Source: a virus. From it: DNA of 64,000 bases. Position numbers and translations under genes: made by a program. Shown piece by piece: positions 58,154 through 61,248 of this stretch (its first letter is position 1; each line of letters opens with the position of its first letter). The notes beneath the pieces are model-generated. The model worked only from the letters and a program-made list of their open reading frames with translations, did not search any database and was not told where the DNA came from. The stretch spans positions 124,001 to 188,000 of the IMG/VR virus record IMGVR_UViG_3300023278_002893; one strand, written 5' to 3'.

Positions 58154-58498
58154 TTAATCCTTTATAATATTAACATACCTCTGGTCATAATATTTATCCG
58201 TCCATTTATCAACGATGTTGTGGATAACATTAGATAGTCTTTGGACTATGAACAAAGTAAAGAATAGATCCAAGTAACCGTTACCGGACATGGGCACAAC
58301 AGGTCTCGCTACGCAAACCACTACGGCTGCAACCCAAAAAGAAAAACAATAACCACAACTGAGTAATTCCCCAAACCAACTACCCCATTTAGAAACTACA
58401 GCGCGAAGGGGTTTAAAGAGAACAGATTTAATTACTAGTTCCGTTAGCGCCTCAGTAATGAAAGCTGCTGCTAAAATATGTAAAAATATAAGACCCAT
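58154..58498 (-). CDS. small membrane protein with CGYC motif (DUF1360-like), 114 aa
   Basis: At least three hydrophobic segments are visible, about residues 2-18, 42-66 and 77-88. The diagnostic piece is C-G-Y-C-F-S-F-W, matching the C-x-x-C-x-x-F-W signature of DUF1360-type membrane proteins. It would reside in the host inner membrane. It is oddly placed among head genes and does not look like a virion part. A role in the host envelope or in superinfection control is only a guess. Confidence 0.62.
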   Translation of the reverse strand: MGLIFLHILAAAFITEALTELVIKSVLFKPLRAVVSKWGSWFGELLSCGYCFSFWVAAVVVCVARPVVPMSGNGYLDLFFTLFIVQRLSNVIHNIVDKWTDKYYDQRYVNIIKD

Positions 58499-58507
58499 GT
58501 AATTCTC

Positions 58508-58810
58508 CTATTCGTATATAATAGTAACGTCTATGTCCGCACTTAAAACCAACGTTAATCCGTTGTTTAGTGGGATGTCGAAACCAATACTCTTCTTGAA
58601 AGCATTTCCTGTGCCGATGGTGGATTGATAAACAATATCGCCCGAGGCGGCGCCGTTATTATACACTGTAATAGTGCTGCTGTTGGGATTAGAATTAATC
58701 GAAATCTGGTGGAGCCATGCCTTAGCGCCCGTCTCGCGCAGTACGGTGGTGGACGCGAGGTCAACTCGGAACCATTTTCTAGCATCTCTGTAGTGGACAG
58801 TATTTGTCAT
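58508..58810 (-). CDS. small head-decoration-type protein, copy 3 of 3 (100 aa)
   Basis: It is a member of a tandem triplet. Shared features are a basic start ending R-K-W-x-R-(V/I), a T-T-V-(L/I)-R strand, W-L-H-Q-I-S-I, I-T-V-Y-N-N-G-A-A-S-G-D and a C-terminal N-G-L-T-L-V-L-S with V-T-I-I-Y-E. The pattern is an all-beta fold of about 100 residues. The genes are probably virion surface decorations or small fibres of the head. Copy order follows transcription (59128, 58820, 58508). Confidence 0.68.
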   Translation of the reverse strand: MTNTVHYRDARKWFRVDLASTTVLRETGAKAWLHQISINSNPNSSTITVYNNGAASGDIVYQSTIGTGNAFKKSIGFDIPLNNGLTLVLSADIDVTIIYE

Positions 58811-58819
58811 TTGTACCTC

Positions 58820-59122
58820 CTACTCATATATAACGGTTAAATCTAACCCACCGCTACCAACTACAGTAAGACCCTTATCAAGTAATACATTAAAGTCAAA
58901 CACACGTGATTGGTTAGAGGCGAACCCGACATTAAGCACTGAGACGGGATCAGATGACTCTCCGGAACTATTATAAATCACAACCGTGGCCGGGTCGAAG
59001 GCCGTGTTAATTATAATTCTGTGCAGCCGTGCTGAATTACCATCACCCCTAATAACAGTGGTCCCTGCGGTACTAATACGTATCCATTTTCTATTTTCTC
59101 TATTAGGTTCTTCCATCCTCAA
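58820..59122 (-). CDS. small head-decoration-type protein, copy 2 of 3 (100 aa)
   Basis: This is the most diverged copy of the triplet: N-R-K-W-I-R-I, then L-H-R-I-I-I-N, V-V-I-Y-N-S-S-G-E-S-S-D-P-V and K-G-L-T-V-V-G-S with L-T-V-I-Y-E. The G-A-A-S-G-D loop of the other two copies is G-E-S-S-D here, so the loop between the middle strands varies most. The shared beta scaffold with variable loops fits surface-exposed decoration. Separated from the neighbouring copies by 9 and 5 nt. Confidence 0.66.
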   Translation of the reverse strand: MRMEEPNRENRKWIRISTAGTTVIRGDGNSARLHRIIINTAFDPATVVIYNSSGESSDPVSVLNVGFASNQSRVFDFNVLLDKGLTVVGSGGLDLTVIYE

Positions 59123-59127
59123 ACTCC

Positions 59128-59424
59128 CTACTCGTATACCACTGTTAGGTTCATCGGGGCACTCAAGACAATGGTTAGTCCGCTATCTAATCTAACATCA
59201 AACAGAAACGGGTTCCTAAGAGCGGCTGTATCCGTTAAAGTAATTAACGCAAAGACATCACCAGACGCTGCTCCATTATTATAAATTGTAACAGTTCCGG
59301 GTGCGGGATCACCTGGTATAATGGAATGAAGCCATGCAGTATTACCAGTGGCTCTTAGTATATTAGTACCTGAGGTCAATCGTGCCCATTTCCTACCTTC
59401 CCTGTAGAGTGGATTATCTGTCAT
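59128..59424 (-). CDS. small head-decoration-type protein, copy 1 of 3 (98 aa)
   Basis: First transcribed copy of the triplet. It shows G-R-K-W-A-R-L, W-L-H-S-I-I-P, V-T-I-Y-N-N-G-A-A-S-G-D-V and S-G-L-T-I-V-L-S with L-T-V-V-Y-E. It resembles copy 3 more than copy 2 in the central loop. An HNH endonuclease gene has been inserted between it and the major capsid gene, so in the ancestral order it directly followed the capsid gene. That supports a capsid-related role. Confidence 0.67.
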   Translation of the reverse strand: MTDNPLYREGRKWARLTSGTNILRATGNTAWLHSIIPGDPAPGTVTIYNNGAASGDVFALITLTDTAALRNPFLFDVRLDSGLTIVLSAPMNLTVVYE

Positions 59425-59441
59425 TTATCTTTTCCTTGTTG

Positions 59442-59954
59442 TTAAATTTCAGACATAAATTCTTCTGCGGTCTTAGTGTGTTTCCTAAGATTACAACTAG
59501 GACACGCAAGGCATAAATTAGACCAAGTGTGCTTACCTCCCCTAGAAAGGGGCAGTTTGTGATCTAAATGAGAATTTTCTTCAATAGAAACACTGCAATA
59601 AAAACACATCTTATCTTGTACACACGAGAGTAGTTCTATCATGCCACTAAAAATAAATCCTAAATTATTATCCTTAAGTGCTCGTCTTTTTTGGGCATAT
59701 TCTCTAAATTTAAGTTTATTAGATTTCTGATATTCAGATTGTTTTGATGGATATTTATCCCTATAAGATTCACTATATTCTCTGTGCATTATTTTCTTTC
59801 TCTCTATGTTGCACTTATAATACTTATTATTTCTAAGTTTATCTATCTCCGATACACACTCTTTACACTGAGATTTAAATCCATTTTTAGAAGAACTATT
59901 TTTATAGAATTCATTCTTTCTCTTTAGCACCTTGCATGTACTACATATTTTCAT
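59442..59954 (-). CDS. intact HNH homing endonuclease, 170 aa
   Basis: An N-terminal zinc finger (C4, C7, C30, C33) leads into a basic helical linker and a complete HNH domain. Zinc knuckles are C117-x2-C120 and C151-x2-C154, the catalytic D131-H132 lies in L-D-H-K-L-P-L-S-R-G-G, and N146 and H159 complete the site. It is a close architectural relative of the 198-aa protein at 28497-29093, which has lost the D-H. It lies between the capsid gene and the decoration triplet. Its ribosome binding site AGAGG (59960-59964) is inside a long stem of its leader, so translation is probably restrained. Confidence 0.88.
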   Translation of the reverse strand: MKICSTCKVLKRKNEFYKNSSSKNGFKSQCKECVSEIDKLRNNKYYKCNIERKKIMHREYSESYRDKYPSKQSEYQKSNKLKFREYAQKRRALKDNNLGFIFSGMIELLSCVQDKMCFYCSVSIEENSHLDHKLPLSRGGKHTWSNLCLACPSCNLRKHTKTAEEFMSEI

Positions 59955-60180
59955 AAATACCTCTTGTAGCTAGAACGTAGGGACAGTTAGCGGGGAGACT
60001 AACCTTTTTTAGATGCCTAGGCTATAGGAACCCACGCTCTAGCTTTTAATATTATGGGACCTAAAAAACCTACAAGAGCATTGTTTATCTAATCCCTACC
60101 TACCGCGGGTCCCCTTATTACTTGCTCCCAAAAGGAGAAAGACGCTTACGCGCCTCCCCCCTAAGGGATTAACGCGATGA
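59955..60180 (-). promoter_or_regulatory. structured 5' leader between capsid gene and HNH gene, with a probable pseudoknot
   Basis: Several exact complementarities occur. CTCTTGTAG/CTACAAGAG pairs 59961-59969 with 60070-60078 (9 bp). A 9-bp stem with one G-U joins 59969-59977 to 60035-60043. A 5-bp hairpin pairs 59986-59990 with 59998-60002. GGGACC/GGTCCC pairs 60056-60061 with 60108-60113 and crosses the first stem, making a pseudoknot. TAATCCCT/AGGGATTA joins 60090-60097 to 60164-60171. The first stem covers most of the AGAGG ribosome binding site of the HNH gene. Homing-endonuclease genes of T4 are known to hide their binding sites in hairpins. No tRNA or group I core fits. Confidence 0.6.
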
Positions 60181-61248
60181 TTAACTTCGGTCAATAACAC
60201 CAAGCTGGGTCATTCGAGAGTCGAGAAGGGCGAACCCTACCTCTTCCCATCCGAAGAATCCCTGCTTCTGCTGTCGAAGCAAGCTCGGGTCATCGTGCGC
60301 CTCGAACTCCTTTCGTACAGGCATAACAAGCGAATCATTAACGGAGAGATCAAATCCATAGACCTGGGTCTCACCTGCAGTGGTAACGTTTCCGTTAGCA
60401 TCCACGGTGTTAATGTTCGTTGGGGTGTAATCATTGAAGTCGCCGGAACCATCTACCTGGAAGATACCATAAGAAGCGCCGTTCTGGTTGATGTTGAATC
60501 GACCAGTAGCACCAAGCTGGAATACCTCATGTAGATTTACGTTCCAGATTCGACCCATACCAGCAGCCGTGAAAATCTCTCGGCGGGTGATCGGATCAAC
60601 CTGAGTATCGGTCCACTCACGAATGTCAGCGGCGTCCTCAGGGGAAATGTATAGGTCAGTAAGGGAGCGTCGAACTCTCTTCATTCCTACCATCATCAGG
60701 TTCAGGAGCTCCTTCGAGAGGAACTTCTCACCGGTAGATCCGGAGGGAACCTGGAAAACAGGAGCATTGCGAGCGCCAAGGAGACCCTGGCCTGCGAAGT
60801 CAGTAGTAGCACCGGGGACAATTACTCGCCATCCGGACTCCTCTTCGTAGTCTGCAATAGATCGTGCTGCGTTTCGAGCTGCTCGCTCGGGGATATCAAT
60901 GCGTGAGTCGCGTGCGTAGGTTACCTTCCAATCCGCAGATACTGCGATGGAGAAAGTAGGTACGTACACTTCCTCACCAACACCCTCAACGAAGTTCTGT
61001 GCGATATATCCGAGTCCCGGAAGTACGAATACCGGAACGTCGAAGTCGTCAGCAACTGGATATACAGCCTGTGCGCCTGGCGCCAATCGCTCAACAGCAA
61101 AGAGCTGTCGCATGATGGACGCGTCTCGAATCTCCTGGAGAATCGGGACAGTAAGAGCCTGCGCAAAGGCTTTGTATGCTTCAACACCCTCGGGAGTGTC
61201 GATAGCTGCAGTTGCTTGGAACATTTCCTGTAGCTTTGTTCTATCCAT
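60181..61248 (-). CDS. major capsid protein (HK97 fold), 355 aa
   Basis: It sits directly after the scaffold and decoration genes. The sequence fits an HK97-type shell protein: a helical N-arm (residues 1-45), an E-loop-like stretch (Y-P-V-A-D-D-F-D-V-P-V-F), a long spine helix region (I-P-E-R-A-A-R-N-A-A-R-S-I-A-D-Y-E-E-E) and the characteristic D-L-Y-I-S-P-E-D-A-A-D-I-R-E-W. It ends with the common beta pattern near G-F-F-G-W-E-E-V-G-F-A-L-L-D. The N-terminus reads M-D-R-T-K-L-Q-E-M-F, with no large leader, so scaffolding appears to be a separate protein. It forms the icosahedral shell. Confidence 0.85.
   Translation of the reverse strand: MDRTKLQEMFQATAAIDTPEGVEAYKAFAQALTVPILQEIRDASIMRQLFAVERLAPGAQAVYPVADDFDVPVFVLPGLGYIAQNFVEGVGEEVYVPTFSIAVSADWKVTYARDSRIDIPERAARNAARSIADYEEESGWRVIVPGATTDFAGQGLLGARNAPVFQVPSGSTGEKFLSKELLNLMMVGMKRVRRSLTDLYISPEDAADIREWTDTQVDPITRREIFTAAGMGRIWNVNLHEVFQLGATGRFNINQNGASYGIFQVDGSGDFNDYTPTNINTVDANGNVTTAGETQVYGFDLSVNDSLVMPVRKEFEAHDDPSLLRQQKQGFFGWEEVGFALLDSRMTQLGVIDRS

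Follow-up and report, generated by a model that had tools for sequence, protein, structure and literature searches.

We have identified a previously undescribed RNA hairpin, here called E3, which sequence comparison predicts downstream of the major capsid gene in a clade of uncultured large phages and to which E3 appears confined. The clade encodes a conserved intercistronic RNA past the capsid gene, made up of a hairpin at the capsid mRNA 3' end (E1), an optional segment (E2) and then E3. E3 is a candidate new motif among structured leader RNAs, with unusual, position-bound behavior. Selection acts both on its fold and on the bulge and loop letters, and it is probably a translational operator. 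In the genome studied here, an HNH endonuclease gene appears to have dropped in behind a pre-existing E3, which now forms its 5' leader. The endonuclease is best regarded as a passenger, and the folded RNA ahead of its gene seems, for the most part, not to be the nuclease's own switch.

Sequences and alignments

The window, meaning the whole stretch of DNA analyzed, is 64 kb out of a 297,725-bp virus record (IMGVR_UViG_3300023278_002893, positions 124,001 to 188,000). A capsid protein scan yielded 36 IMG/VR loci. Clade I comprises 24 contigs among these loci, with capsids at least 86% identical. Clade II comprises many loci from a wider capsid scan, with a capsid identity of 66-71%. E3 was aligned in sets of 16 rows and of 18 rows (17 distinct sequences). 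The duplicate contigs L005, L016, L022 and L032 were left out of both sets, and L010 and L071 were also left out of the 16-row set. The alignments of E1 and E2 had 19 and 11 rows, respectively.

The capsid locus

On the minus strand, the capsid gene is followed by a 226-nt gap (the leader), the HNH gene, three cassette genes of ~100 aa and a DUF1360-like gene.

60181-61248, minus strand: gene for the major capsid protein, 355 aa (matches the major head protein family PHROG 2522 at E = 1e-12)
59442-59954, minus strand: HNH endonuclease gene, 170 aa (PF01844, E = 5e-11; PHROG 1035)
59128-59424, minus strand: first cassette gene, 98 aa (a relative lies directly behind E3 in L006 and L012)
58154-58498, minus strand: DUF1360-like gene, a fixed downstream landmark (PF07098, E = 2.6e-5)

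The capsid protein is a weak, distant relative of the major head protein of Bacillus phage G (24.7% over 64% of the query) and groups with that of L006 on the capsid tree (support 100/99). The DUF1360-like gene (58154-58498) carries a conserved CGYCFSVW and is kept after the capsid gene in clades I and II. The row of three cassette genes (58508-59424) is paralogous, and the number and type of such genes differ among relatives.

The capsid gene is a favored target of mobile elements in this phage group. Split capsid genes were seen in L037 (6079-6310 and 5516-5649), L025 (1799-2853), L030 (2920-4000), L031 (2852-4000) and L033 (2858-4000). That of L037 has a group I intron match (79.4 bits) plus a second match below threshold, and in L030, L033 and L037 the ORFs within the capsid-gene gaps encode LAGLIDADG endonucleases. 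In L025 (3839-5239), L029 (3113-4534) and L039 (5299-7641), the 3' side of the capsid gene is adjoined by a large ORF whose start is zinc-finger-like, one of these ORFs having a sub-threshold HNH match (E = 0.0019). In L032 (5861-6547), another HNH gene (PF01844) sits as an insertion between the DUF1360-like gene and its next neighbor.

Fold and conservation of E3

E3 is built of a ~12-bp stem (P1), a bulge containing CCUAGG and a small hairpin (P2) with a nearly invariant loop.

59968-60045, minus strand: E3, conserved structured RNA motif (model score 40.5 bits, E = 1.9e-5 in the window)
60032-60043, minus strand: stem P1, 5' strand, including the third stem of the initial annotation discussed below (paired in 100% of cells across the 17 distinct sequences)
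59969-59980, minus strand: stem P1, 3' strand (same 17-sequence comparison)
60016-60021, minus strand: palindromic hexamer CCUAGG of the bulge (CCNNGG invariant)
59986-60003, minus strand: hairpin P2, GUUAG 60003-59999 with CUAAC 59990-59986 (stem covaries)

The P2 loop is UCUCCCCG (59998-59991) in all members except L071, which has ACUCCCCG. The hexamer is CCUAGG everywhere except in L015 (CCGCGG) and L019 (CCCGGG). Across the 17 distinct sequences, 97.6% of cells in the E3 helices are paired, and double compensatory changes occur in 13 of 17 pairs (8/12 in the long stem and 5/5 in the short stem). The covariation score was 0.748 versus 0.284 shuffled, a value as high being reached in 0 of 500 shuffles, and slid controls scored 0.052-0.265. 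Parsimony on the capsid tree assigned 44 pair changes to the long stem, 30 double and 14 single, all of which keep the pair; there were no changes to mismatch, versus 26-39 mismatches in slid controls. The short stem had four changes to mismatch, located at its two middle pairs, and one such pair is open in 6 of the 17 sequences.

G-U pairs are frequent in E3. At the six loci for which both strands were listed, the model scored 77.9-83 bits on the sense strand versus 14.8-19.5 on the opposite strand. Given these sense-strand scores and common wobble pairs, E3 looks to have been selected as RNA of the coding strand. A late-promoter (DNA) motif was rejected on the grounds that E3 occurs in single copy and its G-U pairs favor one strand.

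E3 is carried by the window and by 21 of the 24 clade I contigs. The other three are fragments that stop short of its place: L018 breaks off in a 1525-aa frame, L025 runs for 2.3 kb past the capsid gene and L038 ends within it. The E3 of L071, left out of model building, was recovered at E = 6.7e-6. Among 14 whole records searched, E3 occurs once in each of eight, two of them about 296-298 kb; it was missing from the other six, all of clade II. There was no E3 in 66 clade II capsid loci, in 61 further loci or in the whole phage G record. A pattern scan of bacterial contigs returned nine stretches, the best of which (L227, 28.4 bits) falls within a coding frame that we take to be histidinol dehydrogenase-like, and these were dismissed as chance matches.

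Scores were 40.5 bits for the window copy, 42.6 for L071 and 62-83 for the other 16 rows. The window E3 is thus among the two most diverged copies and has an enlarged bulge, yet its long stem is fully paired. It may be degenerating.

No Rfam 15 family, among them those of HDV-like and other ribozymes, riboswitches, the group I intron and HEARO, reached its gathering threshold in the window. A search of 59400-60300 returned RefB11 alone (12.9 bits, E = 8.9), and a search of seven relatives returned sR14 alone (E = 0.51). We found no published description of an E3-like motif in the literature searched.

E3 is tied to a place and not to a gene

In every member, 13-26 nt separate the base of the E3 stem from the next start codon. 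The spacing script picked an earlier ATG in L006 and L012, and figures counted by hand from the sequence to the listed frame (24 and 23 nt, respectively) were used for these two. Spacing stays constant across at least five kinds of next gene. This is a 92-102-aa cassette gene or, in L007, L013, L019, L020, L023 and L024, the DUF1360-like gene. Other forms are a larger tail- or lectin-like protein (L011 and L017), a 46-aa frame (L040) and, in the window, the HNH gene. E3 goes with the place, since its spacing is fixed whatever gene follows. Other genes separate it from the capsid gene in eight contigs (L011, L013, L019, L020, L022, L023, L024 and L032). In the window, the base of E3 (59969) lies flush against the AGAGG ribosome site of the HNH gene (59964-59960), and this site is mostly open when the full leader is folded.

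Structures between the capsid gene and E3

60121-60168, minus strand: E1, long, GC-rich hairpin at the capsid mRNA 3' end (place and shape the same in relatives)
60062-60114, minus strand: E2 remnant, a decayed terminator/antiterminator segment with a U tract (comparison with ten relatives)

E1 pairs 60162-60150 with 60145-60133, is closed by UCCC/GGGA and is followed by GGGAGCAAG. Across clade I the hairpin is long and GC-rich, with a GGGAGCAAG-like tail behind it, and double changes occur in 7 of its 12 predicted pairs (19 rows). The ribosome site of the post-capsid ORF of L025 sits within an E1-type hairpin.

The full form of E2 was recognized in ten relatives only (L007-L009, L011-L015, L021 and L040), about 60-130 nt past the capsid stop, and not in the remaining members. 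It comprises two mutually exclusive helices that draw on a common C-run. One is a terminator hairpin that carries a U tract (-15.6 to -20.2 kcal/mol), the other an alternative helix that would form earlier (-9.2 to -16.6 kcal/mol). By these predictions, E2 resembles, in the ten relatives, an attenuator set between the capsid gene and the genes that follow. It shares with known transcription attenuators two helices on one C-run, one of them ending in a U tract; in the window, however, E2 has decayed, with energies of -5.5 for the terminator and -4.5 for the alternative helix. A terminator scan of the window leader region found none. The initial annotation of this DNA had proposed that the leader guards the nuclease gene against read-through from the capsid gene; with the post-capsid terminator of the relatives broken in the window, the opposite is seen. 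The leader does not obviously restrain expression of the nuclease, since its terminator/antiterminator pair has decayed.

The stem over the ribosome site of the HNH gene

The initial annotation also described a pseudoknotted leader built of three helices, all of which were placed correctly and belong to RNA of the minus strand.

60070-60078, minus strand: ribosome-site stem, 5' strand (window lineage only)
59961-59969, minus strand: ribosome-site stem, 3' strand (overlaps AGAGG, 59964-59960)
60108-60113, minus strand: crossing helix, 5' strand (partner 60061-60056; length at chance level)
60056-60061, minus strand: crossing helix, 3' strand (in the sequence; GGTCCC is also found in L012 after the U tract)

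The ribosome-site stem, CUCUUGUAG (60078-60070) with CUACAAGAG (59969-59961), is present as nine perfect pairs and covers AGAG of the AGAGG site, but it is neither conserved nor favored in folding. Likewise, GGGACC (60113-60108) and GGUCCC (60061-60056) exist and cross the first stem as described, but formation of the pseudoknot is not favored and the 6-mer is of chance-level length. The nested third stem, GCUAGAGCG with CGUUCUAGC (60043-60035 and 59977-59969), is the lone helix of the three that comparison backs; it has base 59969 in common with the ribosome-site stem.

A 9-bp Watson-Crick stem occurred somewhere in 58 of 500 dinucleotide shuffles of the 226-nt leader, and ten six-bp helices were observed against a shuffle mean of 6.3. 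By length alone, the three helices are not striking. A 9-bp stem over the one fixed ribosome site, itself one among many places open to a reader, arose in 6 of 2000 shuffles; the ribosome-site stem is only moderately unlikely by chance.

The whole leader folds better than its shuffles (z = -2.72). Within the nested ensemble, the pair probability was 0.000-0.003 for the ribosome-site stem and 0.002-0.009 for the crossing helix. With the stem forced and the crossing arms open, the folding energy was -73.5 versus a minimum of -82.6. The crossing duplex adds -10.4, which by rough addition only brings this fold level with the minimum, no pseudoknot penalty having yet been charged. In the fold of the full leader, AGAGG is mostly unpaired with the exception of its last G, and when the fold starts at 60140 the site pairs with other upstream bases.

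The stem was absent from all 17 relatives compared, where the best Watson-Crick match to the site is 4-6 bp; a lack of compensatory changes, named as refuting in the initial annotation, thus holds for this stem. With G-U pairs allowed, longer U-rich matches to the site appear, reaching 11 bp in L007 and 10 in L023. At most, the ribosome-site stem is an addition particular to this lineage. The suggestion that the leader resembles regulatory RNA was borne out, since the leader does contain a structured RNA that is conserved and shows strong compensatory change. The purpose given to it, hiding the ribosome site to limit the nuclease, was not, as the conserved part exists in nuclease-less relatives ahead of unrelated genes. 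It follows that nuclease control was not what gave rise to this RNA.

The HNH gene

The HNH gene sits between E3 and the type of cassette that directly follows E3 in L006 and L012, which represent empty sites. Its GC content is 0.308, compared with 0.521 for the capsid gene and 0.438 for the next gene, and this low value fits a recent arrival. The protein matches PF01844 and the PHROG endonuclease VII/HNH families, which would make it a homing-type endonuclease. The one other genome found with this gene carries an identical copy. A scan of 59440-60260, limited to sigma-70 promoters, found one promoter-like site, inside the HNH gene, and none in the leader.

Other classes of RNA were considered for this locus. 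For the surroundings of the HNH gene, a group I intron and a ribozyme were both rejected, as neither the window nor the leader gave an Rfam match. IscB/omega-RNA systems are defined by a RuvC plus HNH effector beside an RNA. An IscB-like RNA-guided nuclease was rejected because the 170-aa protein has HNH only, without a RuvC domain. The order of the crossing helices loosely fits an HDV-like double pseudoknot, which was rejected as there is, by eye, no room for a third helix and no Rfam match.

Discussion

E3 has the structural features of a cis-regulatory RNA motif: covarying stems, conserved loops and a fixed relation to the coding start. In its covarying stems, conserved loops and fixed 5' leader place it is like the structured RNA motifs of Rfam, but it matches no Rfam 15 family and occurs only in phages, within one uncultured clade. 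The conserved loop and bulge letters, the exchangeable stem and the place flush with the ribosome site point to an RNA that something binds, which favors an operator or a ligand-bound leader. It is hypothesized that E3 acts in cis on the late capsid transcript. A candidate factor, which may be a small ligand or a protein of phage or host origin, would recognize the UCUCCCCG loop and the CCNNGG bulge that the stem presents. Once bound, directly beside the Shine-Dalgarno site, it would limit or time translation of the first gene after the capsid gene, and the endonuclease, as a hitch-hiker, would come under E3 control. We give this reading, of a factor-bound cis element whose control the endonuclease inherits, an even chance of being right; invariant loops would also fit contact with the ribosome, an RNase or RNA polymerase. 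Pairing of the loop UCUCC in cis with the GGAGA site of its own RNA was rejected on geometry: the letters fit in about half of the members, but in those with the site 2 nt from the stem the loop is some 17 bp off.

It is unlikely, though the strongest of the alternatives, that E3 is a processing or stability element, with the late polycistronic transcript cut nearby, the stem guarding the downstream 5' end and E1 guarding the capsid 3' end. The gap is bracketed by E1 and E3 in many members and the stem of the window copy is stable (-29.9 kcal/mol). There is a T4 precedent beside the endonuclease gene segG, where gene 32 is stabilized by RNase E processing (PMC2988022). However, a stem that only protects has no need of an invariant 8-nt loop and bulge, and in the eight contigs named above other genes lie between the capsid gene and E3.

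The pseudoknotted leader of the initial annotation, limiting nuclease production, is less probable still. It has in its favor the perfect 9-bp stem over AGAG, rare among shuffles, and the known ribosome-site hairpins of T4-type homing endonucleases (PMC2988022). In L025, independently, a 466-aa ORF behind the capsid gene has its AAAGGAG site in a predicted 15-bp hairpin. Set against this, the stem is missing in 17 relatives and has a nested pairing probability of about zero, the pseudoknot at best ties before any penalty, and the only other HNH-bearing genome is identical in the gene. The leader resembles the RBS-sequestering hairpins of T4 I-TevI, segB and Aeh1 mobE in placing a phage endonuclease gene behind an RNA that possibly covers its RBS, but the covering stem of the window is limited to one lineage and not favored. 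In leaders of that type a late promoter downstream of the 5' arm frees the site; the sigma-70 scan found no promoter-like site in the leader of the window.

A parallel for the endonuclease as a passenger comes from T4, of which genes 23 and 24 are capsid genes. Homing endonuclease genes of T4 sit in gene borders, such as segD between genes 23 and 24 (PMC2988022). Another likeness is the seg43(25) leader of Aeromonas phage 25, a very stable hairpin immediately upstream of the endonuclease ribosome site that excludes the site itself (PMC2988022). E3 would likewise be a stable hairpin directly upstream of a ribosome site that is left open; it differs in being conserved ahead of unrelated genes in relatives, of which the section on seg43(25) in PMC2988022 states nothing.

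We consider it very unlikely that E3 is a put- or EAR-like processive antitermination RNA that lets RNA polymerase read through later late-operon terminators. Like HK022 put, of about 70 nt (PMC9378689), it would be a cis-acting RNA of a phage transcript, about 65-70 nt long, and it lies just past the terminator-like E2 in most of the ten E2 loci. But put consists of two adjacent stem-loops (PMC9378689), whereas E3 has a single stem carrying a bulge and a hairpin, and a transcription element does not require a place 13-26 nt from a start codon. Equally improbable is action in trans or as a dimer through a kissing pair of the self-complementary bulge hexamer, as in a small RNA or assembly RNA: all three hexamers seen (CCUAGG, CCGCGG and CCCGGG) are palindromes, but only two departures from CCUAGG occur in 17 distinct sequences, evidence of a separate promoter is lacking and the position is bound to a start codon.

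Conclusions

E3 is a compact, testable RNA element by the capsid gene, for which the prediction is that the loop and bulge letters matter and the stem letters do not. More tentatively, it may represent a new class of phage regulatory RNA tied to a position, the first start codon of the post-capsid block, in which an invariant loop and a self-complementary bulge on an exchangeable stem are read by a late factor or through copy-copy pairing, and which would control any cassette or mobile gene landing behind it. The inference that the leader was made for the nuclease was a natural one, correctable only by comparison with nuclease-less relatives. A mobile nuclease gene can acquire a ready-made structured leader that is mistakable for a purpose-built switch.
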